A DNA stretch of 64,000 nucleotides from Pseudodesulfovibrio sp. S3 (lineage in GTDB: Bacteria; Desulfobacterota; Desulfovibrionia; Desulfovibrionales; Desulfovibrionaceae): assembly GCF_004025585.1 (NCBI RefSeq), contig NZ_QTZO01000005.1:124001-188000 (forward strand), read 5' to 3'. The notes under the pieces were generated by a model. That model was not told where the DNA came from and did no database searches. It was given only the letters and a program-made list of their open reading frames with translations. Of this stretch, positions 49,521 to 64,000 are shown piece after piece. The position numbers were made by a program, and so were the translations under genes. Within the stretch, counting starts at the first letter, position 1. Every line of letters begins with the position of its first letter.

Positions 49521-52346
49521 CTACCCTTGCGGTCGGCTTATGCCCACGGTCACGGTCTTGGCTTGGTGGCGGATGGTGTCGATGGGCCGGGTCATTTCCT
49601 CTATGGCCTTGTTCAGGATGGTCAGGATGTCGGCCAGTCTGGCTTCGGAGGCGCAGATGGCTTCGGACTGGTTGACCAGCCAGAGCATGTAGTTGGACAG
49701 GGATGCCGCCACCCGTGCGGGCAGGGCAGAGTCCGTGGCCCCGGAGGCTATGCGGTCTATGCAGTTGTTGAGGGCCACCAGCAGTTCCTTGCGGTCCCAT
49801 TTCGCCGTGTCCTCGATCACCTTGCCGAGGAGCACGCGGGCCGCGCGGAAGGGCTCGGCATGGCTGTCGATGGCCTTGGCCGCGCACACGCCCCACCAGT
49901 GACCGGCAACGGTTTCCAGGACGAAGTCCAGGCCGCCGCCCACCCGGGGTACCTTGATGACTGCCTCGGCCACATGGTCGAAGCGGGTTTCATCCCCGGC
50001 GCAGAACACGATGGGCGAACCGTTGTGTGCCTTGAAGATGGTCACTTCCTTGACCGTGTCCATGACAACCATTTCAGGCAGGTCCGAGGCCATGACCAGG
50101 GTCAGCGGTTCGGTGGACAGGTCAATGTGTTTTTTGTCTTCGGTCACGTCGCAGGGGATGGACTTGTAGCACAGTTCAGAGAGCTTGATGCGCACTTCCT
50201 GGGCCGCGATGCAGTTCCGGCCATTGCCGACCAGCGCCCAATAGCGGTGGACCGGGGCGTATTTCTTCGCCACTTCGGCGATGGAGTCCTTCCCGGTCAG
50301 CACTTCGTCGATCTTGCCGGGCAAGGCTTCCAGAGCCTGGATCTCGGTGAGGATGGCCTTTTTTCCCATGGTCTTGAGCACGTCGGCCAGCCAAAGGGAA
50401 AGGAGCTTGCCCGCAGCGATCTGCGAGTAGAAGGCCTTGGTGGAGGCCACGGCCATTTCCACGTCGCGGCCATTGCTGGTGTAGATGTAGGAGTCGGATT
50501 TTTGGACCAGAGGCGAATTGCGCCGGTTGACGATGCAGTTCACCCAGGCGCCGCGGTCGCGGCACAGGTCCACCACCCGGTTGGTGTCCGTGGTGGTACC
50601 GCTCTGCGAGACCGGGATCAGGAAGACGTCGTCCATGCGTTCGTCGCCCATGAAACCGACCAGTTCGGACCCGGTGTAGGATTCGATTCGTATGTCGGTG
50701 TCGGCCAGGGTGCGCCTGAGCAGCTGGGCTACGGCCATACCTGCCACGGCAGCGGTACCCTGACCCACGCAGATGATCCGCTTAATGGGCTTGTCGGTAT
50801 CCCGGAACCGTTTTACCAGGGCCGGGCCTTTGCCGAACCCTTCGGGAAGGAACTCCACGCCACCGTTTTTCTTGAGATATTTTCCGTGCAGGGTGTTGCG
50901 CACGGAATCGGATGCCTCGTGGATTTCCTTTTCGATGTAGTGAGTGTAATCGCCCCGGAAAATGTCTCTGGAGAAAATTTCGATTTTTTCTTCGGCCAGC
51001 TTCACGGATTTGCCGGAGTCCAGATACCGGGCCGTGGGGATGCTGCCTGCCGGGTCCGAATCCTTGAGCACCACCGAGACTCCGCCCTGCTGGTGTATGG
51101 CGATGGGGTAGGAGGAACGCGCGCGGGCGGCCATGCCGTAGGCTTCGGAAGCCACCAGCCAGCCGTCCCGGGTCAGTCCGATGTAGAAGGACTGGCCTGA
51201 TCCCTTCTGGGCGAGGAACTGGGAGTCGAAGTCGCTCAGGTTCTGCATGACCACGGCCAGGGAGCCGTCGCACTGCTTGAGCACGCTGCGGAACCGCTCC
51301 TCGGCATCGCCGTTTTCGTCCACGCCCAGGTGGAAAAGCACGGGCAGGATCTTGGCGTCCGTGGAGATTACGGACGGGATATGCGCGCCCTTGGAGAGGA
51401 CGGTTTCCTCAACCAGGGTCCGGTAGTTGTCCACGTCACCGTTGAGCACGAACATGGTCTTTTCCAGGCCGGTGGAGATGTCGCCCTCGACCAACCCGTC
51501 CACCGGGTGGCAGTTGGGCACGGAGATGATGCCGTTGGAGGCCCAGCGGGTGTGGGCAATGATATTCAGGGTTTCCAGTCCCTCGGACATGGACCAGAGC
51601 AGTTCGTCGTTTCTGATGAAGTCGCGCAGGGCGCTGCCGTTGTCCCCGAGCTGTCCCACCAGCTGTGCCACCTTGTACAGGAAGCGGCAGGCGGTCCGGC
51701 CATCGGGCAGTTTGCGCACGAGCACCTGGCGAGTGTCGGCGTTGCCGATGGAGCAGCGGTCGCACAGCTCCGTCTTCTGTTCCTTGGTCAGGGCGAGTTC
51801 CGGGTCCTTGTCCCTGGGCAGGATGAAGGCCACGGCCACGCCAGCGGAGTCCCGGCCGCGCACTTCGAGCTTGTCTATGGCCTGAAGTACCTGTTCCGTT
51901 CCCCAGGCCAGGAACTGACGATCGCGGGCGTCCGTGTTCCGGGACAGGGCTTCGGGCATGAGGGCCAGGGTGCGGTCCGCGTTGGTCAGGACCTCCTGGT
52001 CGATCTGCCAGAGATAGTCGTCCAGGGTTTCGCGCAGTGCTTCCAATTCGTCGGTGCGCGGCCCCTGTTCCAGTTTGACCGCCGCGGCGTTGCGCAGATT
52101 CCTGATGGTGTCGCGGATGCCGGTGACAGCGCGTCTGGTGTCGGGGTCGGCCACGAGCAGCAGGTGCAGGCCAAAGGCCATGAGTTCATAGAAATGGTCG
52201 GCCAGGGCCGTCATGGGAACGGCGGCCTCAAGCAGATCATTGGTGTTGCGGATGTCGTCGAAGGCGGTTTCAAGAGTGAAGAGCCAGTCGGTGTCTGGCC
52301 TGTCCAACCATTTGTTGTTGCTTAAAAAACTGGCGATGCCACACAT
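49521..52346 (-). CDS. oversized GlmS-like glutamine amidotransferase / SIS-domain protein
   Basis: A 941-residue relative of glucosamine-6-phosphate synthase (normally ~610). The N-terminus is MCGIASF, so Cys2 would be the Ntn glutaminase nucleophile. About 150 helical residues are inserted before the next conserved block, DKLEVRGRDSAGVAV. IIAHTRWASNG and NGDVDNYRTL complete the glutaminase. Two SIS sugar-isomerase domains follow: IICVGQGTAAVAG...PVSQSGTTTDTNRVV...MAVASTKAFYSQ, and WALVGNGRNCIAAQEVRIKLSELCYK. The C-terminus extends ~150 residues beyond the usual end. I chose 52346 because it exposes Cys2; an ATG at 52355 has better ribosome-site proximity but would bury it. It is monocistronic; the reaction may be GlmS-like or altered. 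Confidence 0.8.
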   Translation of the reverse strand: MCGIASFLSNNKWLDRPDTDWLFTLETAFDDIRNTNDLLEAAVPMTALADHFYELMAFGLHLLLVADPDTRRAVTGIRDTIRNLRNAAAVKLEQGPRTDELEALRETLDDYLWQIDQEVLTNADRTLALMPEALSRNTDARDRQFLAWGTEQVLQAIDKLEVRGRDSAGVAVAFILPRDKDPELALTKEQKTELCDRCSIGNADTRQVLVRKLPDGRTACRFLYKVAQLVGQLGDNGSALRDFIRNDELLWSMSEGLETLNIIAHTRWASNGIISVPNCHPVDGLVEGDISTGLEKTMFVLNGDVDNYRTLVEETVLSKGAHIPSVISTDAKILPVLFHLGVDENGDAEERFRSVLKQCDGSLAVVMQNLSDFDSQFLAQKGSGQSFYIGLTRDGWLVASEAYGMAARARSSYPIAIHQQGGVSVVLKDSDPAGSIPTARYLDSGKSVKLAEEKIEIFSRDIFRGDYTHYIEKEIHEASDSVRNTLHGKYLKKNGGVEFLPEGFGKGPALVKRFRDTDKPIKRIICVGQGTAAVAGMAVAQLLRRTLADTDIRIESYTGSELVGFMGDERMDDVFLIPVSQSGTTTDTNRVVDLCRDRGAWVNCIVNRRNSPLVQKSDSYIYTSNGRDVEMAVASTKAFYSQIAAGKLLSLWLADVLKTMGKKAILTEIQALEALPGKIDEVLTGKDSIAEVAKKYAPVHRYWALVGNGRNCIAAQEVRIKLSELCYKSIPCDVTEDKKHIDLSTEPLTLVMASDLPEMVVMDTVKEVTIFKAHNGSPIVFCAGDETRFDHVAEAVIKVPRVGGGLDFVLETVAGHWWGVCAAKAIDSHAEPFRAARVLLGKVIEDTAKWDRKELLVALNNCIDRIASGATDSALPARVAASLSNYMLWLVNQSEAICASEARLADILTILNKAIEEMTRPIDTIRHQAKTVTVGISRPQG

Positions 52347-52612
52347 GGCGGTCATAAACTCCTGATGGATGGTTTCGGATCGTGGGACAATATGCGGCGA
52401 CGGTCGCATGGTGCGCGCCGGGCATCCTGCGTTCGGTTGAAGAATTACTGCACATGGCAGGCCTTTGCAAGCTCGAAGGGTGGTCGGAACAAAGTCTGGA
52501 CAGGGATGGTCTTGGAAGGGGAGACGGCGGGTTTCCTGAGTGCTTTTTTGGTTCTAACTGTCTTTTCAATAATGAAATGAAATGCTATGCAATAAAGAAA
52601 TAGGACAAATTC
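52347..52612. other. Divergent intergenic region
   Basis: Separates the GlmS-like gene from the binding-protein/kinase operon. TTTTCA (52563-52568) and TATGCA (52586-52591), 17 bases apart, are a weak sigma-70-type candidate on the plus strand. No repeat or operator was noticed. Confidence 0.3.
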
Positions 52613-53899
52613 GTGAATCAGATTGAAAAAGCAGGCGCTTGCAGTGCAAACTGTGTCTCTTGGAAGTTGCGGCTGCCATTGCTGTGCGTCCTTGGCCTGC
52701 TTTGTTTTTTTGTTTGGGGTCAGCCAGCCCGTGCCTTCGATAAGTACGTACTCGGTATGTCAGCCGCATTCACCGGCCCAAGCGACGGGCTCGGTGTGGA
52801 GGTCTACCGTGGGGCCATGGCGTACTTCACACACCTCAATCATCAGGGCGGCATCAATGGCAAAATGGTGACCGTTCAAACCCTGGACGACGGGTACCAG
52901 CCCGATCCGGCCATAAAGAATACCATCGATTTTCTGGAAGAGAGTGAAGTCTTGTGCCTGTTCAACTATGTCGGAACGCCCACGGTGACCCGCGTTCTTC
53001 CTCTTCTCAAGGGATACGGGGAATATCAGAAACTCATGTTCTTTCCCTTTACCGGGGCCGAGCCGCAGCGGCAGCCTCCTTACGTCGACTATGTTTTCAA
53101 CCTGAGAGCTTCCTATCGGCAGGAACTGTCCGGCCTGGTCGACAGGTTCGCCGATCTCGGTCGTAATCGCCTGGCGGTTTTCTATCAGGTCGACGCTTAC
53201 GGCCGCAGTGGATGGGACGGGGCTCGCCGCGCCCTGGCCGCCAGGGGACTGCAACTGGCGAGCGAAGCCACCTACAGGCGCGGGGCGCCGTTTGGCACGT
53301 CCATGAAACAGCAGGTGGAAATCATCATGCGCTCCAACCCCGACGCAGTGCTGTCCATCGGCTCCTATGCCGCCTGCGCCGCCTTTGTCCGCGATGCCCG
53401 GAACATGGGCCTGGACGTTCCCATTGCCAATGTCTCGTTTGTGGGCAGTGAAAATCTGCTCAAACTGCTGGTGGCGGCTGGAGAAGCGGCCGGACGGGAC
53501 TATACGGTCGACCTCATCAATACCCAGGTGGTCCCCAGTTACGAGGATGTGAGCTTGCCCGCTGTCCGGGAATATCGCGATTTCATGGACCGGTTCATGC
53601 CGGTGCCGCCGGTGCTGGCCGAAAAGCATTACACGCCCCTGCGCTACAGTTTTACCAGTTTTGAGGGATTCCTCAACGCCAAGGTCATGGCATGCATTCT
53701 GAAAACATATGACGGCAATCCCTCAAAAGGACTCAAACATGCGGCCGAATCCATACGGGAAGCGGATCTTGGCATAGACGTCCCGGTGAGTTTCGGCCCT
53801 GAAAGGCATCAGGGACTGGATCGGGTCTATTTTACCACGGTCAATGATCGGAAGTTCGTTCCCATTGACGCGGAGCAGTGGCAGACATGGCAGAAATAA
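52613..53899 (+). CDS. periplasmic binding protein (amino-acid/urea HAAT type), sensor-associated
   Basis: A 428-residue exported protein. The GTG start gives a signal peptide (LRLPLLCVLGLLCFFVWGQPARA). The mature fold is Peripla_BP_6 type, opening FDKYVLGMSAAFTGPSDGLGVEVYRGAMAYFTHLNHQGGINGKMV with the usual DDGYQPDPAIKNT. Such proteins bind branched-chain amino acids, amides or urea. No ABC permease or ATPase is nearby; instead the 3' end overlaps the start of a membrane histidine kinase. I infer it delivers a ligand signal to that kinase rather than to a transporter. The ligand is unknown. Confidence 0.88.
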   Translation: MNQIEKAGACSANCVSWKLRLPLLCVLGLLCFFVWGQPARAFDKYVLGMSAAFTGPSDGLGVEVYRGAMAYFTHLNHQGGINGKMVTVQTLDDGYQPDPAIKNTIDFLEESEVLCLFNYVGTPTVTRVLPLLKGYGEYQKLMFFPFTGAEPQRQPPYVDYVFNLRASYRQELSGLVDRFADLGRNRLAVFYQVDAYGRSGWDGARRALAARGLQLASEATYRRGAPFGTSMKQQVEIIMRSNPDAVLSIGSYAACAAFVRDARNMGLDVPIANVSFVGSENLLKLLVAAGEAAGRDYTVDLINTQVVPSYEDVSLPAVREYRDFMDRFMPVPPVLAEKHYTPLRYSFTSFEGFLNAKVMACILKTYDGNPSKGLKHAAESIREADLGIDVPVSFGPERHQGLDRVYFTTVNDRKFVPIDAEQWQTWQK

Positions 53900-56412
53900 G
53901 GGGCATGTCTCTGTTCAAGAAGACCGGTCTTCTTGCGTTCTGTCTGTTCGGAGTCATTTCCACCCTGACCTCTGCGCTTGCGGCCTGGACCCTGCATGAG
54001 CACATGACCCGCGAATATATCAGCAAGGGGATCGCCATAGCCAGGTCCATTGCCGGAGCCAGTCAGGAAATCCTGCTGAACCGCGATGCGGCCACGGTGC
54101 AGGCCATGATCGATCAGTACCACGAGATCGACGGCGTGGCCTACGTCTTTGTCGTGGACAGGGAAGGATTCGTGGTTTCGCATACCTTTGTCCCTGAAAT
54201 GCCTTCCATTCTGCGCGAGTTCCGCAATTCGGAACATGCACATACCCTTTCGGACATCGAGATCAAACCCTACGGTCGGGTGATCGACATTTGCGAGCCC
54301 ATTCTGGCGGGCGTGGCCGGGTACGTGCACGTGGGCATGGATAGGGAACTGATCATGAGCTATTTCTGGCAGGCGGTGATCAGAATGCAGGGCCTGCTGT
54401 TTTTTGTCTTTTGGGGTTGCGTCGGCATCCTCTATCTGATGTCCCGCCGAATTTCCCGCCCGCTTCATCAGTTGACGGAGTATGCCAGGAGGTTGGCGGC
54501 ACATGATTTTTCCGCTTCCATCGACATCAGGACCAAGGACGAACTCGACCTGCTCGGCAGAGCCATGCAGTCCATGGGCCAGGAACTTTCATTGCTTTTT
54601 TCAGAGATGGAGAGCGAGGTGGACAAGGCAACCGTGGGACTGCGGGATCACATGGCCTACCTCGCAGCCATCATCGACAACCTGGCGGACGGTCTGCTGG
54701 TGGTCGGCGTGAGCGGGGAGATATCGGTCATCAACCCGGCAATGCGGGAGTTTTTCGATCTCAAGGCTCCGTCGTATGCGGGATTGGCCTCGTCCGTGGT
54801 CTTTCCGCCCGAGGTCGTGGGCATAACCAGGAAGATCAGGAAGTGCGACAGCGAGATACTGTCCGCCGAGATCCCCCTGTCCAGGGGCAGGACCGGCAAG
54901 GCCGTGGGGTCTTCCATCTTCATCGAGGAACCGAACCGGCAGTGTCTCGGCGGGGTCATTCTCATCCGGGACATCACCCGCGAAAAGGAGCTGGATCAGC
55001 TCAAGACGGACTTCATATCAACGGTGTCCCATGAATTGAGAACGCCCATGACATCGGTGCTCGGCTTTTCCAAGATCATCAAGAAGAAGCTGGAGCAGGT
55101 CATCTTCCCGCTTCTGGCGGACAATGCGGAAGTCGTGAAGCCCGTCAATCAGGTGCGCGGCAACATGGAGATCATAGTCTCCGAGGCCGAGCGGCTGACG
55201 GAATTGATCAATGATGTCCTGGACATCGCCAGGATGGAGGCAGGGGAACTGATGTGGCGGGACGGGAACGTCTCCATGTCCAAGATCCTGGAGCAGTCCA
55301 AGGAAGCCACACGGGGGCTGTGGGGCGCCAAGAACCTTCTGGTCGAGACCCGCGTAGAGGACGGCCTGCCGGAAGTGTACGGCGATTACGACCGCTTGGT
55401 GCAGGTGGTGGTCAACCTTATTTCCAATGCCGTCAAGTTCACGGAATCAAGCCCTATCGTCTGTACGGCCGTTCTGGACGGCGGATCGGTGCTGGTGTCG
55501 GTGGCCGACAAGGGTTCCGGCATTGAACTGGCGGAACTGGACCTGGTCTTTGACAAGTTCAAGCAGGTGGGAGACACCTTGACCGGCAAACCCGAAGGCT
55601 CAGGGCTGGGGCTGCCTATCTGCCGCCAGATCGTGGAACGCCATGGCGGGCGTATCTGGGCAGAGAGTCTCCCCGGCAAGGGCAGCATATTTCATTTTTC
55701 CATCCCTGTCAGTGGAATGCCTCCGGCGATCGGGGCCGAAGGCAAGGCCGTCTGCCAGGTCGAGGACCATCGCAGGTCGCAGGGCCGGGGCTGCGGACGG
55801 GAGGGTGCCGCCAGTTCCCTGATCATGGTCGTGGACGACGACCCTTCCCTGACCCGTTTTTTGGCACAGGTTTTCGAGGAACAGGGCTTCAGGGTCTGTG
55901 AAGTCCTGAATGGCCCGGACGCCATAAAGACGGCTCAGGAAATACTGCCGGACCTGATCACCATGGATCTCATGATGCCGGGTATGGACGGTCATGAGGT
56001 CATCCGCAGGCTGCGCCTTATTCCGGCCACACGGCATATTCCCATTCTGGTGATCACGGCGCTGAGCGGCTTTGAGGGCGAGGCCGGCGACATGGCACTG
56101 GTCAAGCCGGTGGATGAGATCAAACTGAATCAGGCCGCCCGCATCCTGCTCAGGGAAAAGGAATGCTGCAAGTCGTGCATTGTGCTCGGGAACAAGCAGG
56201 AATGTGATCTGGATGGGCTGATGATCCTGTGCACGGGTGAAGTGACTTTCTCTTCCACGGAAGAGTTTTGGGGTATGGTAGACCGAGGGTTTACCGGAAC
56301 GGTTTTTATTCCTAACGCAGAAATCGACAGGATCGAGTTGGAGAGGCTGACCCATCTGCCGGGGGTTGCCGTCATCATCCTGCCAGCCTATTCTGGAAGA
56401 ATAACGGATTAA
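53887..56412 (+). CDS. membrane hybrid sensor histidine kinase
   Basis: An 841-residue kinase. Helix 1 (GLLAFCLFGVISTLTSALAAWTL) and helix 2 (GLLFFVFWGCVGILYLM) bracket a ~135-residue periplasmic sensor domain. HAMP, coiled coil and PAS (~255-365) follow. HisKA has FISTVSHELRTPMTSVLGFSKIIKKK, HATPase_c has NAVKFTESS, DKGSGI and GSGLGLPICRQIVERHGG, and a receiver has MVVDDDPSLTRFL and LITMDLMMPGMDG. About 95 more residues with several Cys (EKECCKSCIVLGNKQECDLDG) end the protein. The start overlaps the binding-protein gene by 13 bases; an ATG at 53905 is an alternative. It probably reads the binding protein's ligand state. Confidence 0.88.
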   Translation: MAEIRGMSLFKKTGLLAFCLFGVISTLTSALAAWTLHEHMTREYISKGIAIARSIAGASQEILLNRDAATVQAMIDQYHEIDGVAYVFVVDREGFVVSHTFVPEMPSILREFRNSEHAHTLSDIEIKPYGRVIDICEPILAGVAGYVHVGMDRELIMSYFWQAVIRMQGLLFFVFWGCVGILYLMSRRISRPLHQLTEYARRLAAHDFSASIDIRTKDELDLLGRAMQSMGQELSLLFSEMESEVDKATVGLRDHMAYLAAIIDNLADGLLVVGVSGEISVINPAMREFFDLKAPSYAGLASSVVFPPEVVGITRKIRKCDSEILSAEIPLSRGRTGKAVGSSIFIEEPNRQCLGGVILIRDITREKELDQLKTDFISTVSHELRTPMTSVLGFSKIIKKKLEQVIFPLLADNAEVVKPVNQVRGNMEIIVSEAERLTELINDVLDIARMEAGELMWRDGNVSMSKILEQSKEATRGLWGAKNLLVETRVEDGLPEVYGDYDRLVQVVVNLISNAVKFTESSPIVCTAVLDGGSVLVSVADKGSGIELAELDLVFDKFKQVGDTLTGKPEGSGLGLPICRQIVERHGGRIWAESLPGKGSIFHFSIPVSGMPPAIGAEGKAVCQVEDHRRSQGRGCGREGAASSLIMVVDDDPSLTRFLAQVFEEQGFRVCEVLNGPDAIKTAQEILPDLITMDLMMPGMDGHEVIRRLRLIPATRHIPILVITALSGFEGEAGDMALVKPVDEIKLNQAARILLREKECCKSCIVLGNKQECDLDGLMILCTGEVTFSSTEEFWGMVDRGFTGTVFIPNAEIDRIELERLTHLPGVAVIILPAYSGRITD

Positions 56413-56466
56413 TGCGTGATTCCGATTGCGAGGTCAAACCCTCTTGTGGCATAACTTATTGTGATG

Positions 56467-56481
56467 GTCATTAATAATGAC
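56467..56481. promoter_or_regulatory. Small palindrome before the CheY-like gene
   Basis: GTCATTAATAATGAC has perfect 7-bp arms around one base, 36 bases upstream of the ATG at 56517. It is a candidate operator in an AT-rich pocket. Confidence 0.4.
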
Positions 56482-56516
56482 AATTTGTTTCAACCGGCTT
56501 CTTAAGGAGTTTTGCA

Positions 56517-56897
56517 ATGACCAAGAGAATCCTCATAGTCGATGACGAGGTGCATATCAAAATGTTGCTGGAGCAGACGCTTGAGGAACTCGAAGACGAG
56601 TTCGAGGTCGAACTGTTCACGGCTTCCGACGGGGAGGAGGGTCTTGAGTTCATTCGCAGCAAGCGTCCTGATCTGGTTTTTTTGGATATAATGATGCCCA
56701 AAATGAACGGGTACGAGGTCTGCCGCATCGTCAAGGATGACAGCAATCTTCAGGATGTGAAGATCATTCTGCTCACGGCAAAGGGGCAGGAAGTGGACCG
56801 CAAGCAGGGGCTGAAGCTGGGAGCCATGATGTATATGACCAAGCCTTTTGATCCCGACGAGATTTTGCGGGTTTCGAAAGAACTGCTAGAGCTGTAA
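56517..56897 (+). CDS. stand-alone CheY-like response regulator
   Basis: A 126-residue single receiver domain: ILIVDDE at the acidic pocket, phospho-Asp in DLVFLDIMMPKMNGYEVC (~57), the conserved Thr in ILLTAKG (~88) and Lys in MMYMTKPFDPDE (~109). It has no output domain. An AAGGAG site precedes the ATG. It lies between the hybrid kinase and the HD-GYP gene, 31 bases from the latter, and may shuttle phosphate from the kinase to a partner such as the HD-GYP protein. Confidence 0.93.
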   Translation: MTKRILIVDDEVHIKMLLEQTLEELEDEFEVELFTASDGEEGLEFIRSKRPDLVFLDIMMPKMNGYEVCRIVKDDSNLQDVKIILLTAKGQEVDRKQGLKLGAMMYMTKPFDPDEILRVSKELLEL

Positions 56898-56928
56898 ACC
56901 ATTTTTTCCCGGTGCTGCTGAATTCCCT

Positions 56929-58668
56929 ATGACCCCGTTAAAAAAATACATCCGTCCGGGCGTGTTGCGGAATTTTCTGCGCAAGGCCCATGAGATGGCT
57001 GGCGGCGAATGCCCTTTGGCCATGAAGTATGACGGCGAAGTGGTCATCGTGGAAGGCACTGATTCCATGACGGGCTTCGGAGAGAACGAACCCGGCGTGC
57101 TTGTCGCGCCGCTTCAGTATGACGATATTCATTCCGGGTGTGTTGCCATTCGAGTTGCGCCGTCCTGCTCTTCGACCGATTTTGGGCGGTTGCTTGATTT
57201 CATAGCCTATTCCATTCAAGAACTCATCGACATGGAGCGGGCCAGACGGTCCATAGCCGAGGAAGCCCTGGCCAAGTACCGTGAGTTGGCCCTGCTGCAT
57301 CGGTCGGTTCCGAATATCAACACATCCCTGCACATGCGCGATGTGGTCAGCGCACTCATCGACGAATGCCGCCTGGAAAACTACCCCGGCGAGCGCGGCA
57401 TGATTTTTCTGTTGGAACCGGGCAGAAAGATGTTCCGCCTGGCCGTTCAATTCGGCTTTCCTTTTGGCAGTTATTTACAACCCATGGCCGAAAGCGCCCT
57501 GTTCAACGAGGTGGTTCATTCGGGCCACGGTGAGATCGTCAACGACCTGGCCAAGGAAAAGCGGTGGGACAACGAACTGCCCGGCTTGTCTTCCATGATC
57601 CTCATTCCCATCAGTTCCCCCAACCGTTGCGAGGGAGTGCTCATCCTGGCATCGGAGAATACCGGTGTGTTCGAAGCCGCCCATCGGCGCAGCCTGTCCA
57701 CGTTGGCCTCGGTGGCAGGCATTTCCGTGAGCAACTCATTCAATTTCGAGGGCATTCAGAAACTGATGAACGCCATCCTGCAGGCGTTGGCCGAAGCCAT
57801 TGACTCCAGGGACCCGTTCACGGCTGGTCACTCCGAGCGTGTGGCTCACCTGGCCGTGGCGTTTGCCCATGCCATGAACGAGGATGGCGGTCACAAAGGG
57901 ACTGTATTCTCCGACGATGAACTGCGTGAGATATATTATGCCGGAATCCTGCATGACGTCGGCAAGATAGGCATCAAGGAGGAGGTGCTGACCAAGCGCA
58001 CCCGCCTGTCTGAACGGCGTATGGAAGTCGTCCGGGCCCGTTTCCAACTCATGGGACAATTCGACAATTTCAATTGGGCCGAGGCCTATGAATGTCTATG
58101 CGATGTGAACAAGGCCATGACGCCGGAATCCAAGGATCTGGAATTCATCAAGAGTCTGGGATCGCGGGCTATGCGCAAGGGGGAGACGAACCTGCCGTAT
58201 CTGCACGAAGACGAACTGGAGCATCTTTTGTTGTCCTACGGCAACCTGACCAAGGACGAGCGCAAGGAAATCCAACGCCATCCGGCGGAAAGTGAACGCA
58301 TCCTGCAACACATCCCCATGCACGACAACTACAGCAATATGCTGACCATCATTCGCCAACATCACGAGCGCATGGACGGATCAGGTTACCCCGACGGGCT
58401 GAAAGGGGATGAGCTGCTGATTCAGAGCCGCTTGATGGCTATCGTCGATATCTATGACGCCGTTACCCAGGAACGGCACTACAAGCCTGCTTATACCCGG
58501 AGCGAGGCAGTGAAAATCCTGCGCGAGGAAGTGGCGACAGGCAAGCTGGACGCCGATCTGACGGCTTTTTTCCTGAACAACATCGAGCGCATCGAAACCC
58601 TGTCCGACCAAGTCAAGGTGACCAAGGCCACGCACATATCGGCCCTGGGCAATCTCTCCGGTCTCTAA
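56929..58668 (+). CDS. GAF / HD-GYP cyclic-di-GMP phosphodiesterase
   Basis: A 579-residue cytoplasmic protein. A ~100-residue N-terminal module is followed by a GAF domain (~130-280; GLSSMILIPISSPNRCEGVLILASENTGVF) and an HD-GYP domain from ~285. The HD-GYP has SRDPFTAGHSERVAHLAVAFA, YYAGILHDVGKIGIKEEVL and HHERMDGSGYPDGLKGDELL, all metal and GYP residues intact. Between the HD and GYP parts is an insertion of about 80 residues (RMEVVRARFQLMGQFDNFNWAEAYECLCDV...). It should hydrolyse c-di-GMP in response to the kinase/regulator encoded upstream and so change motility or attachment. Confidence 0.92.
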   Translation: MTPLKKYIRPGVLRNFLRKAHEMAGGECPLAMKYDGEVVIVEGTDSMTGFGENEPGVLVAPLQYDDIHSGCVAIRVAPSCSSTDFGRLLDFIAYSIQELIDMERARRSIAEEALAKYRELALLHRSVPNINTSLHMRDVVSALIDECRLENYPGERGMIFLLEPGRKMFRLAVQFGFPFGSYLQPMAESALFNEVVHSGHGEIVNDLAKEKRWDNELPGLSSMILIPISSPNRCEGVLILASENTGVFEAAHRRSLSTLASVAGISVSNSFNFEGIQKLMNAILQALAEAIDSRDPFTAGHSERVAHLAVAFAHAMNEDGGHKGTVFSDDELREIYYAGILHDVGKIGIKEEVLTKRTRLSERRMEVVRARFQLMGQFDNFNWAEAYECLCDVNKAMTPESKDLEFIKSLGSRAMRKGETNLPYLHEDELEHLLLSYGNLTKDERKEIQRHPAESERILQHIPMHDNYSNMLTIIRQHHERMDGSGYPDGLKGDELLIQSRLMAIVDIYDAVTQERHYKPAYTRSEAVKILREEVATGKLDADLTAFFLNNIERIETLSDQVKVTKATHISALGNLSGL

Positions 58669-58705: not shown

Positions 58706-60295
58706 TTACAGATTTGTTTTGCGTCTGATGCAGGAAAAGGGCAGTTGCCCCCCGGCAAAGAGCGTCTTGCAGAACGGGCCGAGGTCCATTTTCCATTCCT
58801 TTCGGAGGGCCGTTATTTCGTGCAGGCCCAGAATAGGCATGGCCTTCTTGGCTGGGGCGAGACGGATGGTCCGAATGGTGCCGAGTCCTTCTCCACGCGA
58901 AAACCCCGCTTCGCTCAGAATTTCCAGACAGCGGTCCTGGTCCAGGGTATTCATGGCCAGCCCGGCATCAATCTTTGCCAATGTGGCCCGGCGCAGACCG
59001 CGCACATGATGAACCAGCCGGTCAAGGGGGGCCTCTAGATACCCCAACTCTTCAAGCAGGTTTTCGGAAAAAGCCAGCCACCCGGCCATGAACAGCGGAT
59101 TGGTCACCTGGGAGAGCGGAGATTCGCCCAGAAGCCGGCGTTGTGAATCGAGCAGGTGTCGGCCTGGATAGGTCTGCGCGGCGGCCATGAAAGGGAATTC
59201 CTTGCGCATACGGGCCAGGCGGTCGGGGGTGTCCCTGAACCGGTTCCCGGAAAATAACTGCGGGCTGACGTAGCAGCGTGAAAATTCATTTTCCCATGCG
59301 CCCAGTGCCGGGTCAAGATGGATGGGGCGCAGGGTGGAAGCCATGTGCAGGGGCTGCGGGTCCACGCGCAGTCCGGTGTCGGCAAAGGTGTCCGCAAGGG
59401 GGCCGTTTTGCACGAAGCTGCGGAGCCGGTGAATCTCGCGGACGATGAGATCAAGGGCTTCCAGGTTGTCGGTGGGCGGTCCCTGATACTCGTTGTAGAG
59501 GGTTTTCCAGTCTCCCCCCCCGATTTTTGTTTGGAGCCAATGCAGGGATTGGAGCCTTCGTTCGATTTCTTCTTCGGCCAGGGCAAGGATGTCCTGCGGT
59601 GCCTTGTCCGTGCCGAATACGTTTTTTGTGATGTGCTGGAAGGATGGCCCTTCATTGTCGGGTGTCTCCGTGCGGCTGGTCACAAACCGGTCGTATTCCT
59701 TGAGAGCTTCCAGGGCGTCTGCCAGGAAGTGGGGGGCCTTGCCGACCCGGCCCAGTTGGTGATTGCCCAGCTCGGTCAGATAGCGGGCACAATCCCGTAT
59801 CATGGTCTGGGAGGTGGCTCGGCTGGTGGCGCTGATGGTTTCGATGTTCCCCGGAGCGTGCTCCAGGAGGGCAGGGATGGACCGGAGTCGTTTTATGAAC
59901 CGTTTTTGCCGCAGTCGATCGCTCTTGGCGGGCATGTCTGCCGCCTGTTCAAGGCCGGTAAAGGCGACGAGCAGGTAATGCTCCGGGGCCCGTTCCCAGG
60001 CCCGGATGTCGTGCAGTTCGGTGATGGCGCCGCCAACGCTCAGGGTGAGGGCGAGGGCCTCTGCTTTTTCCTCCTGTCCTGCTGCCCGGTCCGCTGCCGT
60101 AAGGAAATCCGTTTTGAAGTCGTTCAAGGCGGTCAGATGCCGTTCAATGCCTTTTGAGGAAAGGTCGTCCAGGCGATCCATCCATTTGGAGGAATCCGAT
60201 ACGGGCGGCATCAGGGGAAAAGCCCCGGAAGCACACATGACTGGAAAGTGCTTGGCCACGTAGGCAAAGAACTTCTTGGCGGTTTTGTTTTTCAT
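58706..60295 (-). CDS. DUF885-family protein
   Basis: A 529-residue protein, predominantly helical, with the spacing of DUF885 proteins (distant relatives of M3/M32 metallopeptidases). A helical N-terminal half is followed by YPGRHLLDSQRRLLGESPLSQVTNPLFMAGWLAFSENLLEELGYL and a C-terminal ATLAKIDAGLAMNTLDQDRCLEILSEAGFS. The usual H-x-x-x-H zinc site is not obvious: YPGRHLLD stands where YPGHH is expected, so activity may be lost or altered. The ATG at 60295 lacks a clear ribosome site; a TTG at 60328 overlaps the cheV stop (TTGA). It is therefore likely cotranscribed with cheV. Confidence 0.72.
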   Translation of the reverse strand: MKNKTAKKFFAYVAKHFPVMCASGAFPLMPPVSDSSKWMDRLDDLSSKGIERHLTALNDFKTDFLTAADRAAGQEEKAEALALTLSVGGAITELHDIRAWERAPEHYLLVAFTGLEQAADMPAKSDRLRQKRFIKRLRSIPALLEHAPGNIETISATSRATSQTMIRDCARYLTELGNHQLGRVGKAPHFLADALEALKEYDRFVTSRTETPDNEGPSFQHITKNVFGTDKAPQDILALAEEEIERRLQSLHWLQTKIGGGDWKTLYNEYQGPPTDNLEALDLIVREIHRLRSFVQNGPLADTFADTGLRVDPQPLHMASTLRPIHLDPALGAWENEFSRCYVSPQLFSGNRFRDTPDRLARMRKEFPFMAAAQTYPGRHLLDSQRRLLGESPLSQVTNPLFMAGWLAFSENLLEELGYLEAPLDRLVHHVRGLRRATLAKIDAGLAMNTLDQDRCLEILSEAGFSRGEGLGTIRTIRLAPAKKAMPILGLHEITALRKEWKMDLGPFCKTLFAGGQLPFSCIRRKTNL

Positions 60296-60324
60296 GAGGT
60301 GGTGTGTGTTGGAGGCAGTCCGGG

Positions 60325-61278
60325 TCAAGTTCTGGACGCGCTAAGTAATTTCAGAGCCTTGGATGCGAGTTCTCCGAGTTCAGCCTTTGAGATCTGTTCG
60401 TCGGCCCCCACGGCAATGCCCTTGTGATGCAGGGTCTTGGTTATGATGGAAGAGCACAGGATTACCGGGAGCGTTTTCAGCAGGGCATCCTCTTTGATGT
60501 GGCGGGTGAGGGTATGCCCGTCCATGGCTGGCATTTCGATGTCTGATACGACAAGGTTGACGAAATTTTCGAGTGGTTTGTTTTCGGCTTCGGCCTTGGC
60601 CTTGAGTTTGAGCAGGTATTTCCAGGCCAGCTCCCCGTTTTCCTCGGTGTGGACCTTGAAGCCGGTTGAGGTCATGATGTTGGCGATCATCTTGCGAGCC
60701 ATGTTGGAGTCGTCGACCAGGACCACCCTGATATCCTTTTGGGTGATTTCCTGTTTGACCGATTCTACGGGTTCGAGAACAGGCTCCCCCTCGGGGTTGA
60801 GTTCCATGCAGATCTTTTCCATGTCCAGGATGAAGATGATGCGGGAAGTGAATTTTACTACTCCCGTGATGGAATTGACCGTCAGTGAGGAGACATAATT
60901 GGTAGGTGCTTCGACTTCATGCCAGTTGATGCGGTGGATTCGGGTCACGCCCGAGACAAGAAAAGCGCTTTTGGTGCGGTTGAATTCGGTGACGATGACC
61001 TTGGGTGCATCGTTTTCGGAACGTTTTTTATGCAGCCAGCCTGCCAGGTCGATGAGCGGAATGATCTCGTTGCGCAGGTTGAAGGCACCCATTACCGATT
61101 CATGTGCGGCTTCGGGCATTTCCGTCAGGTTGGGCATTTGAATGATTTCCAGCACCTTGGCCACGTTGATGCCGTAATAGCCACGGTAATTCCCGGAGGC
61201 GCGCGTCTCGTCCAGATAAAACTCGACAATTTCGAGTTCGTTGGTGCCGGATTCAAGCAGGATATTGGTTTCGCTCAT
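60325..61278 (-). CDS. cheV: chemotaxis coupling protein CheV (CheW-receiver fusion)
   Basis: A 317-residue cytoplasmic protein. Residues ~10-175 form a CheW domain (LEIVEFYLDETRASGNYRGYYGINVAKVLEIIQMPNLTEMPEA, GAFNLRNEIIPLIDLAGWL). Residues ~190-315 form a receiver domain with VVLVDDSNMARKMI, phospho-Asp in LVVSDIEMPAMDGHTL and the Lys near ADEQISKAEL. CheV links chemoreceptors to CheA and adapts the signal by phosphorylation. A GGAG site lies 9 bases before the ATG at 61278. It shows that the organism is chemotactic. Same direction as the two-component pair upstream on this strand. Confidence 0.94.
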   Translation of the reverse strand: MSETNILLESGTNELEIVEFYLDETRASGNYRGYYGINVAKVLEIIQMPNLTEMPEAAHESVMGAFNLRNEIIPLIDLAGWLHKKRSENDAPKVIVTEFNRTKSAFLVSGVTRIHRINWHEVEAPTNYVSSLTVNSITGVVKFTSRIIFILDMEKICMELNPEGEPVLEPVESVKQEITQKDIRVVLVDDSNMARKMIANIMTSTGFKVHTEENGELAWKYLLKLKAKAEAENKPLENFVNLVVSDIEMPAMDGHTLTRHIKEDALLKTLPVILCSSIITKTLHHKGIAVGADEQISKAELGELASKALKLLSASRT

Positions 61279-61394
61279 GAACGGTGTCTCCAGGGAAATC
61301 CACAAAGTTGGGCAGTGTCCAGACCCAATACATATACAAGGGGTTTGCCGGGCGCAACCCTGTGTGTTCGGCTCAGTGGAAATACTGACAGGGT

Positions 61395-62777
61395 CTATGC
61401 CTCTGTATTGTCGATTCCGTATTTCTTGATTTTGTAGTGAATGGCCCTGCGGCTGATGCCGAGCCGGTCTGCAGCCACCTTCTTGACGCCTTTTGACGCA
61501 TCCAGAGCATGGATGATGGCCTCCCGTTCGCTGTCTTCCAGAGACAGGCCGTGGACTCTGGCTGCGGGTGAACCGGCAGGAGGCTCCTCGATGTTGAGAT
61601 CATCGGCCTGGATGGTGTCTCCCCGACAGAAGACCAGGGCGGCCTCCAGGGTGTTCTTCAGTTCGCGGACGTTGCCGGGCCATGGGTGGGTGGTCAGGAT
61701 GTCCATGGCGCCTGAAGAGATGACCACTGGAGGGCGTTCCTGATGGGCGCACAATTCGGCAACAAATCCTTTTGCCAGGGCGGGAATGTCCTCCTTGCGC
61801 TCGCGCAGGGGTGGGATGGTCAGGGTGACGACCTTGAGCCGGTAGTAGAGGTCTTCGCGGAATTGGCCTTGGGCGACCATGTGCGGCAGGTTCGCATTGG
61901 TGGCGGCAACGACTCGGCAGGTCACTGATCGTTCGGCATTGTCTCCCACCCGTCGAATGGTGCCCTCCTGTAGAAAACGGAGTAACCTGGTCTGCATGTC
62001 CGGGGAAATGTTGCCGATCTCGTCCAGAAACAGGGTGCCGCCGTCCGCCGCTTCGATCAGTCCTTTCTTGTCCTTGACCGCGTGGGTGAAGGATCCCTTG
62101 ACATGTCCGAATAGTTCGCTCTCCAGCAACGTGGGCTGGGTCGAGCCGCAGTCCACCACAACGAACGGCCCGTCGGCGCGGGGGCTGGCGTCATGCAGTC
62201 TTCGCGCCGCCTTTTCCTTGCCTGTGCCGGACTCGCCGAACAATAGGACCAGGGCCGTGGACCGGGCCACGCGTTCGAGCAATTCCAGGAACCGGGCCAT
62301 GGACGGGGCTTTGCCGCCCAGCAAGCCGTTTACAGCGGCCGGAGAATGTCCGGTCGGGGCCGCATCAATCGATTTCCCGCTGCTTGGGGCCGTGGTTCGG
62401 CGTTCTTCCAGCCTGGCCCTGACCCGGCGTACCAGCTCCTTGCCGTCAAAGGGCTTGGTCAGGTAGTCGGCGGCACCGGCCTGGATGGACCCGACCGCAT
62501 CGGGGATGGTCCCATGGGCCGTGAGCATGATGATGGGAATGTGCGGCCAGTTTTCCATCACTTCCTTGAGCAATCCCTGGCCGCCCATGCCCGGCATCTT
62601 CACGTCGGATATGATCAGATCCACGGGCTCATAGGCCAACATTTCAAGGGCGGTTTCAGCCCGGTCGGCCAGCAGGGGGGTCAGGCCCGAGGAAAGGAGT
62701 CTGGCCTCAAGCACCTGGAGGATATTCTCGTCATCGTCCACCACCAGGATGGTCGGGATGTCAATTTTTTTGCTCAT
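61395..62777 (-). CDS. NtrC-family response regulator with altered GAFTGA loop
   Basis: A 460-residue regulator. Receiver domain 1-120 has phospho-Asp 58 (LIISDVKMPG). The AAA+ domain has Walker A GESGTGKE (181-188) and LDEIGNISPDMQ. A Fis-type helix-turn-helix ends the protein (GVKKVAADRLGISRRAIHYKIKKYGI). The sigma-54 contact loop reads GSFTHA (228-233) instead of GAFTGA; changes at this loop usually weaken or abolish sigma-54 activation. It may thus be a repressor/activator of another type, or use a divergent contact. The start overlaps the kinase stop (ATGA), so the two form an operon. Confidence 0.9.
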   Translation of the reverse strand: MSKKIDIPTILVVDDDENILQVLEARLLSSGLTPLLADRAETALEMLAYEPVDLIISDVKMPGMGGQGLLKEVMENWPHIPIIMLTAHGTIPDAVGSIQAGAADYLTKPFDGKELVRRVRARLEERRTTAPSSGKSIDAAPTGHSPAAVNGLLGGKAPSMARFLELLERVARSTALVLLFGESGTGKEKAARRLHDASPRADGPFVVVDCGSTQPTLLESELFGHVKGSFTHAVKDKKGLIEAADGGTLFLDEIGNISPDMQTRLLRFLQEGTIRRVGDNAERSVTCRVVAATNANLPHMVAQGQFREDLYYRLKVVTLTIPPLRERKEDIPALAKGFVAELCAHQERPPVVISSGAMDILTTHPWPGNVRELKNTLEAALVFCRGDTIQADDLNIEEPPAGSPAARVHGLSLEDSEREAIIHALDASKGVKKVAADRLGISRRAIHYKIKKYGIDNTEA

Positions 62778-64000
62778 GCGATGTCCTTTGCGGGAGTGGA
62801 GGGCAGGGAAAAAAAGAAGTTCGAGCCTTGCCCTGGTTCGCTTTCTACCCAGATGCGGCCGCCGTGGGCCAAGATGATGCGCTTGGAAATGGCCAGTCCG
62901 AGTCCTGCGCCGTCAATGGAGTCACGTACCCCTGGTTCGCGGTAGTATTTATGGAAGACCCGGTCCTGTTCCTCGGGGGGAATGCCGGGACCGTTGTCCC
63001 GCACACAGAACAGGATGTCGTTGCGGCGTCCGGTTCCGGTGACGCTGACATGGCCTCCTTCCGGGGAAAACTTGATGCCGTTGCCGACCAGGTTCATGAG
63101 CACCTGACGGATGTGCCCGGTGTCCGCCGTCAGGGTCAGGGCGTCGTCGGCCTGGGATTCAAGGGTGACGGATTTGGCCCTGGCCGCAGGCAGCAGCCGT
63201 TCCAATGTGGATTCGATGAGCCGTTTCCCGTCCATGCTTTCGGGCCGGAGCACCAGCTCCTCGGACTCCATGCGGGAGACCGAGAGCAGCCGCGTCAGCA
63301 GGTCGGACAGTCGAGCCGATTCCTTTTCCGCAATCCTGAGGAACTGCCGCTGCTTTTCGTTGACCTCGCCGAAGGCGCCGGTCTCGATCAAGTCCACGGC
63401 CTCCCGGACCGAGGTCAGCGGCGTCCTGATCTCGTGGGAGAGCATGGCGATGAAGTCGGCGCGCATACGTTCCTCCCGGCGCAGACGGGCGGCCATGGCG
63501 TTGAAGGCCAGGGCGAGTTCGCCCAGTTCGTCGTTGGAAAGGATGCGTACGTCGCGGGGGGTGGCACCCGTGCCCAGTTCCCGGATGCCCGTGCGTACTT
63601 CGGCCAGGGAGCGGTTCAGGGTGTAGGCAAGGAGCAGGCTTCCTCCCACGCCCAGAATCAGGCAGGCAATGAGTCCGTACAGGCCGATATCCGCCGCCTG
63701 TTGCCCTGCTTCATGAAGCCTGGTCAGCCGGGCCTGCATGTCGGTCACGTTGTCGAGCAGGGATTGTTCCAGGATGTCGGTCCAGTCCCGGACAGTCACG
63801 TTTGGGGTCAGGTTGTCGCCCAACGTCTCGCCCGGGCCCAGGGTTATTTCGTATTCCGAAGTCAGTTCCTGCCATTCAGCCGTGTATTGGGGATGCTTTT
63901 TCAGAGTCTCGTTGAGGATTTCGCCGAACCGGGAGAGGTCTTCCACGATGAATCCGACGGCGGCTTCGTCTCCTCCCAGAAGTCGGTAGCGCCGGATGTT
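62774..64000 (-). CDS. membrane sensor histidine kinase (partial, N-terminus off the window)
   Basis: The frame is open to the right edge; 408 residues are visible. A helical sensor region leads to a membrane helix (IGLYGLIACLILGVGGSLLLAYTL), HAMP (NRSLAEVRTGIRELGTG...NDELGELALAFNAMAARLR), HisKA with the phospho-His in FIAMLSHEIRTPLTSVREAVDLIE and HATPase_c (NLVGNGIKFSPEGG, DNGPGIPPEEQD, GAGLGLAISKRIILAHGG). It overlaps the NtrC-type regulator by four bases and is its cognate kinase, comparable in layout to GlrK/GlrR. The signal is unknown. Confidence 0.92.
   Translation of the reverse strand, partial: NIRRYRLLGGDEAAVGFIVEDLSRFGEILNETLKKHPQYTAEWQELTSEYEITLGPGETLGDNLTPNVTVRDWTDILEQSLLDNVTDMQARLTRLHEAGQQAADIGLYGLIACLILGVGGSLLLAYTLNRSLAEVRTGIRELGTGATPRDVRILSNDELGELALAFNAMAARLRREERMRADFIAMLSHEIRTPLTSVREAVDLIETGAFGEVNEKQRQFLRIAEKESARLSDLLTRLLSVSRMESEELVLRPESMDGKRLIESTLERLLPAARAKSVTLESQADDALTLTADTGHIRQVLMNLVGNGIKFSPEGGHVSVTGTGRRNDILFCVRDNGPGIPPEEQDRVFHKYYREPGVRDSIDGAGLGLAISKRIILAHGGRIWVESEPGQGSNFFFSLPSTPAKDIA

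Follow-up and report, generated by a model that had tools for sequence, protein, structure and literature searches.

Why would a periplasmic binding protein (PBP) be encoded, with no transporter genes at its side, together with a sensor kinase, a receiver, and an HD-GYP enzyme? The question is raised by a locus of Pseudodesulfovibrio sp. S3, which was analyzed in a window of 64,000 nucleotides (the whole stretch, positions 124,001 to 188,000 of contig NZ_QTZO01000005.1). The open reading frame list and Pfam matches confirmed four genes, all on the plus strand within positions 52613-58668: a HAAT-type PBP gene that shares a 22-nt overlap with a hybrid kinase gene, followed by the genes for a lone CheY-like receiver (REC) and a GAF-HD-GYP protein (Table 1). 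These are the parts listed in a preliminary description of the locus, which took them as a relay from an extracellular ligand to the breakdown of cyclic di-GMP (c-di-GMP). The reading that we favor, at a probability of roughly two in three, is that the loaded PBP switches the sCache kinase, which would act through the lone receiver on the GAF-HD-GYP enzyme, as an exchangeable input on a fixed output. We infer its ligand class, docking step, phosphotransfer, phosphodiesterase activity, and sign of the c-di-GMP effect.

Input and output genes across genomes

The genus set consisted of 36 genomes, 35 relatives and the window genome. The preliminary description had named conservation of the four-gene order as a check and its loss among relatives as evidence against a relay. 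The order PBP-kinase-REC-HD-GYP was complete in 24 of the 36 genomes, window included; the 23 further complete loci had the order and strand of the window, and 20 of them also had the 22-nt overlap. In one more genome (L076), the PBP is truncated by the contig end and the sCache kinase is present, so that the two occur together in 25 genomes. This PBP was never found without the sCache kinase or the reverse, and in the remaining 11 genomes both are missing or replaced. Six of these (L077, L078, L080, L082, L084, and L085) have another hybrid kinase and no PBP before REC and HD-GYP, and in five (L075, L079, L081, L083, and L086) a kinase homologue is absent from that place. REC and HD-GYP keep their place in all 12 genomes without the complete order. 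The HD-GYP protein was found in all 36 genomes, at 51 to 80% identity outside the window genome, with its gene broken across two frames in L078 (G012 C1, ~2845-2847 kb), and the lone receiver is the best conserved of the four proteins (80 to 93% in the genus). On a tree of HD-GYP and REC, the input state changed at least seven times on supported branches. Because of the joint presence and loss of the one pair and the persistence of the other in 36 genomes, the gene content indicates that the PBP and sCache sensor behave as one exchangeable input and that REC and HD-GYP are the fixed output core. The locus is a natural series, in which one output stays put while its sensor is replaced or disappears. 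Full-length scans of five of the six alternative kinases showed HAMP, HisKA with an equally long spacing, HATPase, REC, and PAS_7; their sensors matched no Pfam family and appeared helical by eye. A tail pattern resembling GF-x-G-[TV]-V-x-[IV]-P is common to the sCache and alternative kinases at this locus.

Of 119 genomes searched, 34 outside the genus had an HD-GYP match at E 1e-80, and 20 family loci were hand-picked from these for genus spread. REC directly precedes HD-GYP in all 20. Two loci (L256 and L258) have the same parts in another order, REC-HD-GYP-PBP-kinase, with HTF motifs present (see below). Two others (L257 and L269) have the order of the window, but their PBP is another Peripla_BP_6 protein and their kinase is of the Cache_2 type.

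Farther relatives were sought with a 19-sequence PBP alignment, which confirmed at least 580; the best 80 were kept, so that fractions of 80 refer to the nearest relatives only. Three of them (L087-L089) are Pseudodesulfovibrio and repeat genus genomes. A search of the contig collection with the window PBP alone as query gave no matches. The best 80 span many phyla, and an sCache_3 gene lies nearby in 79 of them, 76 times codirectional and no more than 442 nt downstream, and three times divergent and one gene off (L095, L097, and L102); L118, with no sCache match, is the sole exception. In 18 loci the partner includes an output domain; in 57 it is a protein of ~250 residues with no output (L105, one of these, is probably broken), in four it is cut, and in one it is absent. 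Outputs seen by Pfam were kinase, kinase-REC, kinase-REC-REC-Hpt, SpoIIE, and sigma-54 activator. In seven Nitrospirota loci (L090, L091, L093, L094, L096, L099, and L113), a kinase of 620 to 641 residues is immediately followed by a lone REC. Since these kinases are too short for a fused receiver and the lone REC comes next, direct phosphotransfer is favored; L101 has a kinase of that length and no lone REC match. Second-messenger enzymes recur behind the PBP/sCache pair. For instance, in a cyanobacterial (Symploca) locus a GAF-nucleotide cyclase gene (L098:3999-5405, plus strand) lies between the PBP/sCache kinase and a lone REC (60% identical), the same parts with another second-messenger enzyme, and in the genome of the window itself paralogue B (L062) is a PBP with an sCache-PAS-GGDEF-EAL protein.

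Some points weigh against a relay confined to these four genes. REC and HD-GYP persist in the five genomes without an adjacent kinase and in the six with another one; therefore, further inputs must reach the receiver, which makes the relay nonexclusive, and this kinase in turn may act on further targets. To reach a second receiver, a hybrid kinase commonly relies on an Hpt domain, and none is encoded in the four-gene cluster. Adjacent solute-binding protein (SBP) and kinase genes do not necessarily encode partners; the AgtS sensor is described as binding neither AgtB nor PA0602 (PMC11113362). It is conceivable that the PBP and kinase act together on a target elsewhere, with the locus merely shared and the receiver served by other kinases. 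The 11 genomes just mentioned agree with this, as does G097, in which a PBP relative (62%) and an sCache kinase lie on a contig different from either HD-GYP copy. We nevertheless consider it unlikely, given that the PBP and kinase genes adjoin the output in 24 complete genus loci and are linked to it in another order in two sister-genus loci, that other PBP/Cache_2 kinase pairs fill the same slot in two loci, and that a lone REC stands behind the same kinase type in the seven Nitrospirota loci. Of the relay as first described, the pairing of PBP and sCache kinase thus stands, in all 25 genomes with either, and the notion of a dedicated output does not, with REC and HD-GYP persisting without this input in 11.

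The sCache_3 sensor and its binding protein

What would such a sensor read? The kinase matched sCache_3_2, HAMP, HisKA, HATPase_c, and Response_reg above the Pfam cutoffs and PAS slightly below; its sensor is a PF17203 (sCache_3_2) match of 44.6 bits against a cutoff of 28.4. DcuS and Atu0526 have sensors of the same family. The DcuS sequence reads R-x-x-H, with an arginine three residues before the conserved histidine, and R115 of Atu0526, which is needed for the formate response, falls at this position after the alignment with DcuS and CitA described in the text of PMC8698456. In PacF, changes of R142 are reported to affect formate binding (PMC12501870). In contrast, the window sensor reads VVSHTF, and the position of the DcuS arginine is V, I, L, or A across the genus. 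The arginine three residues before the histidine is absent in all 24 genus kinases, and the HTF loop is present in all 24.

This difference was followed in 31 sCache_3_2 loci chosen independently of any PBP, the 29 best matches in a class sample (L195-L223) plus L192 and L193. A PBP gene lies directly upstream in 17 of them (14 Peripla_BP_6 and 3 phosphonate-type). Arginine at -3 or -2 occurred in none of the 17 paired loci compared to 11 of the 14 unpaired ones. The paired sensors read [V/I]-x-x-[H/N]-T-[F/L/M], once V-x-x-H-S-S, and the unpaired ones R-x-x-H (seven loci) or R-G-H (four), with two unreadable and one (L223) reading VVAHTN. Among the 79 partners of the best 80 PBPs, two were too short, and all 77 readable ones had the HTF loop and no arginine at -3. 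In the set used for the sCache tree, none of the 33 paired sensors had the arginine and 12 of the 13 unpaired ones did; 13 far-phylum rows of this set were found through their PBP and are hence paired by design, and two of the 14 unpaired loci are missing from it, L220 removed by hand and L193 left out (partial chemoreceptor-type matches). In the sets examined, PBP-paired sCache_3 domains can therefore be told from nearly all unpaired ones by a simple criterion in the sequence, an HTF loop with no arginine ahead of the histidine. Once borne out, it could be used to predict PBP partners in many phyla.

The pairing also extends to a second, unrelated PBP fold. On contig C2 of this genome, a phosphonate-type PBP (L192:2011-2982, minus strand) stands directly before an sCache_3 kinase whose Cache is of the same kind and has the HTF motif. 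A further example is the family locus L254, which has the order REC-HD-GYP-sCache kinase-REC, one of the two RECs standing directly before the HD-GYP gene, and ~350 nt where L256 and L258 have the PBP. Its 13-kb stretch had no match to six Peripla_BP_6 queries, and its genome, 99% complete, had no relative of the window PBP closer than 34%. The HTF of this kinase without a PBP is changed to RAA (S-R-A-A-A-P), and ~8 kb away, at the left edge (L254:2-2892, plus strand), a phosphonate-type PBP directly precedes another sCache kinase reading A-H-T-F. The comparisons suggest that the PBP-paired sCache became a docking platform that reads the docked PBP, and the two kinases of L254 sharpen this reading. 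The H-T-F loop would probably aid the docking.

Three findings speak against the docking platform or soften it. First, the unpaired L223, just under the Pfam cutoff, lacks the arginine. Second, all paired sCaches fall on the same side of a moderately supported branch (84), those with phosphonate-type partners in two positions, so that the arginine may have been lost only once. Third, the R115A variant of Atu0526 is reported to bind formate more tightly yet lose chemotaxis (PMC8698456); the missing arginine is therefore no proof that the domain cannot bind a ligand, which softens the docking reading. A sensor that binds the ligand itself via other residues, with the PBP delivering or concentrating the ligand or being a scavenger with a historical place in the operon, would accord with this variant. 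It would also accord with the sCache domains described as direct carboxylate sensors (PMC8698456, PMC12501870, PMC12415202) and with the E. coli kinase BarA, reported to bind acetate via a hydrophobic pocket (PMC8639471). However, the R115A receptor binds but signals no longer, the arginine divides paired from unpaired sensors in the tree set as given above, PBP and sCache are lost or replaced together in the genus, and the HTF loop is gone in the L254 kinase without a PBP. Self-binding is quite improbable, and docking is preferred. A search of PDB sequences with the sCache domain of another paralogue of this genome (paralogue C, L063: lipoprotein PBP, sCache-PAS-kinase, and REC-STAS) gave chance matches only.

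Permeases, carriers, and the probable ligand

The preliminary description held that the PBP has no transporter genes, and this was borne out. No Liv-type permease genes lie next to it by Pfam, and the flanking genes, GlmS-like and DUF885, are non-transporters. With three Liv permeases of this genome as queries, no match was found in the fetched stretches of the 80 nearest PBP relatives. Service to an ABC permease elsewhere, with the place beside the kinase due to chance, would draw on the 17 BPD_transp_2 permease matches in this genome, a PBP being assigned to only some of them, and on C37 (5.5 kb), a Liv-type permease contig on which no PBP is seen, possibly owing to truncation. A distant ABC ATPase match (24 to 29% identical) in the loci of 4 of the 80 relatives also counts against the relay reading. 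Set against this are the 0 of 80 relatives near a Liv permease and the three Liv clusters of this genome with their own PBP (on C1 and C20 by Pfam and on C5 at ~50 kb by eye); two transporter PBPs of the Peripla_BP_6 family in this genome adjoin Liv permeases. We therefore regard a distant permease as very improbable, and a transporter-associated PBP was dropped as a candidate.

The fold gives little guidance on the ligand. The PBP matched Peripla_BP_6 at 123.6 bits (cutoff, 31.7), and its model (confidence score pLDDT, 89.8) has the type I PBP fold. The best solved match was 4kv7 (Z 47.3; root mean square deviation, 3.3; 360 residues aligned), followed by 3lop (Z 43.2; 2.5; 349 aligned), and lower matches include entries bound to 3-hydroxybenzoate, leucine, and p-coumarate; as modeled, the fold alone names no ligand. 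In a low-identity alignment with LivJ (pocket residues S79, T102, Y202, and E226), too rough to speak against an amino acid ligand, T102 corresponds to an invariant G148, E226 falls in a gap, and Y202 corresponds to S, T, P, or A, one column before a tyrosine of the window protein.

The neighbors of relatives are more suggestive. Of the 57 output-less partners, 56 have a major facilitator superfamily (MFS) gene next to them, compared to none of the 18 with output domains; the MFS gene lies on the same strand 0 to 143 nt behind in 53 cases and between the PBP and a divergent sCache gene in three. Three of four MFS proteins tested passed the NCBIfam cutoff for L-lactate transporter, and the fourth was 4 bits short. 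The MFS-linked PBPs lie on one side of a single branch (support, 98), so that the association counts once; six PBP rows of this tree have no state (partner cut, missing, or broken). All 22 paralogue-C loci have the PBP together with the sCache kinase, 21 also have REC-STAS, and formate-dehydrogenase-like genes occur in the fetched stretch of 10 of the 22, directly upstream in three (L063, L074, and L176). The pieces tested had FDH-beta and formate-DH-alpha as best matches, below the whole-protein cutoffs. Published accounts give mainly organic acids as sCache ligands (PMC8698456), lactate and formate among them (PMC12415202).

Because a related clade stands beside L-lactate carriers and a paralogue near formate dehydrogenase, a small carboxylate is the likelier ligand of the window PBP, and we think it probable. 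The amino acid, amide, or urea of the preliminary description rests on the family name, and with the relatives' neighbors pointing elsewhere it has become doubtful. Two facts count against the carboxylate and make the lead indirect: the MFS protein of the window genome is only 33% identical, and the MFS-linked PBPs all fall on one side of a branch. If it is true, these sulfate reducers would couple a substrate like formate or lactate to c-di-GMP and thereby to the decision whether to swim or form a biofilm.

The combination of a PBP, an output-less TM-sCache_3-TM (TM, transmembrane segment) protein, and an L-lactate-type MFS protein was seen in L095, L106, L126, L146, and 52 further loci, from Gemmatimonadota, Acidobacteria, Latescibacterota, Gammaproteobacteria, and others. 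By its gene content, it is possibly a binding-protein-assisted secondary transporter. At L063 (contig C5 of the window genome, ~271 kb), the formate-dehydrogenase-like genes run into those for the lipoprotein PBP, sCache kinase, and REC-STAS on one strand.

Output, precedents, and surroundings

Can the signal reach c-di-GMP? Kinase residues H385 and D697 are present in 24 of 24 genus sequences and K743 in 23 of 24, and D9, D10, D57, T87, and K109 of the lone receiver are intact in all 24. In the HD-GYP protein, H301, H342-D343, H451, H478-H479, G486-Y487-P488, and D507 do not vary among the 30 orthologues (of 36) in the alignment; the HD, HH, and D residues presumably are the metal sites, assigned after PmGH. 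In the proposed sequence of events, the PBP loaded with a small organic acid would dock on the sCache_3 domain of the co-encoded kinase and alter its autophosphorylation at H385. The lone receiver would then take up the phosphate, either straight from the kinase or with the fused REC modulating the transfer as a sink or timer, and would in turn act on the GAF-HD-GYP enzyme, raising or lowering c-di-GMP breakdown. The protein is a predicted phosphodiesterase by its residues. The output is plausible because three HD-GYP response regulators of Desulfovibrio vulgaris Hildenborough, a related sulfate reducer, are described as Mn-dependent c-di-GMP phosphodiesterases in vitro, with no hydrolysis by a fourth (PMC4114195). 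In these regulators receiver and HD-GYP form one protein, whereas here they are two. DvhD likewise joins HD-GYP and c-di-GMP to a Cache input in a sulfate reducer; in it SQ replaces HD and c-di-GMP is bound without hydrolysis (PMC13090378), whereas the window protein keeps HD and HH. A dead receptor like DvhD was rejected on these grounds. The insert in the HD-GYP domain was modeled, with moderate confidence (mean pLDDT, 78.9), as helices plus a hairpin.

NspS of Vibrio cholerae senses polyamines, and its receptor MbaA itself changes c-di-GMP. There too, c-di-GMP turnover is under the control of a PBP acting via a membrane receptor (PMC8967002, PMC9993111, PMC5646818). The present locus differs in its PBP, a Peripla_BP_6 protein, and in the steps between, which would run through a kinase, a receiver, and an HD-GYP enzyme encoded separately; paralogue B is the closer architectural match. 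TorT-TorS, LuxP-LuxQ, XylFII-LytS, and BctC-BctE are SBP-activated sensor kinase systems, in which the SBP is the ligand of the kinase's periplasmic domain, as proposed here, and the SBP gene is here genetically tied to the kinase sensor as well, by joint presence or loss and adjacency. What differs is the arginine-less sCache_3_2 sensor, the HD-GYP output via a lone receiver, and a pair exchangeable at a fixed output locus. Only about 10 such kinases were characterized by 2022 (PMC9602780). So few are known to be PBP-switched, and gene neighborhood by itself has been misleading before (PMC11113362). A 2022 review, in a sentence on domains within c-di-GMP proteins, names SBP_bac_3 as the only PBP-clan family studied in c-di-GMP networks (PMC8846402). 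PBP-switched kinases (PMC9602780) and a PBP-controlled c-di-GMP receptor (NspS-MbaA) are thus known kinds. The literature searched, with most subscription journals outside its scope, gave no report of this arrangement, and as far as searched, the sCache_3 signature with its PBP partner, the exchangeable input on a fixed REC and HD-GYP, and the output-less MFS-linked group are new. Tentatively, and at somewhat less than even odds, these may belong to a phylum-spanning receptor class, in which the Cache answers no ligand of its own and reads a docked PBP via the H-T-F loop. The class would have at least two unrelated PBP folds (Peripla_BP_6 and phosphonate-type) and many outputs (HD-GYP or nucleotide cyclase via kinase and receiver, GGDEF-EAL, SpoIIE, and sigma-54 activator), and one output-less clade with a lactate-type MFS protein would be a binding-protein-assisted secondary transporter.

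Table 1. Features of the locus and its neighbors (window positions)
Feature	Position	Strand	Basis or remark
HAAT-type periplasmic binding protein (PBP), Peripla_BP_6, 428 aa	52613..53899	+	Pfam 1.9e-35; signal peptide by eye
Hybrid sensor kinase, 844 aa, TM-sCache_3_2-TM-HAMP-PAS-HisKA-HATPase-REC plus unannotated C-terminal tail	53878..56412	+	Pfam
sCache_3_2 periplasmic sensor domain of kinase	53995..54369	+	VVSHTFVP loop; no Arg three residues before His
Unannotated tail after kinase REC, residues ~731-844, about 100 residues	56068-56412	+	
Lone CheY-like receiver, 126 aa	56517..56897	+	Pfam Response_reg 1.7e-29
GAF-HD-GYP predicted c-di-GMP phosphodiesterase, 579 aa	56929..58668	+	Pfam GAF_2, HD, HD_5
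Insert in HD-GYP domain, residues ~357-427, about 70 residues	57997-58209		Between the two halves of the domain (two Pfam matches)
GlmS-like SIS/amidotransferase gene, divergent left neighbor	49521..52409	-	Context, outside the relay
DUF885, CheW-REC (CheV-like), sigma-54 regulator, and kinase genes, convergent right neighbors	58706..63946	-	Context

A promoter scan gave one promoter-like site compared to a shuffled mean of 3.0, and no sigma-54-like match lay between 52300 and 52700, with a total not above chance; sigma-70 or sigma-54 promoter logic was dropped with these counts. In genome G053 (C309:10818-12986), two tandem PBP matches lie in one 779-aa open frame, which is perhaps a fused double binding protein.

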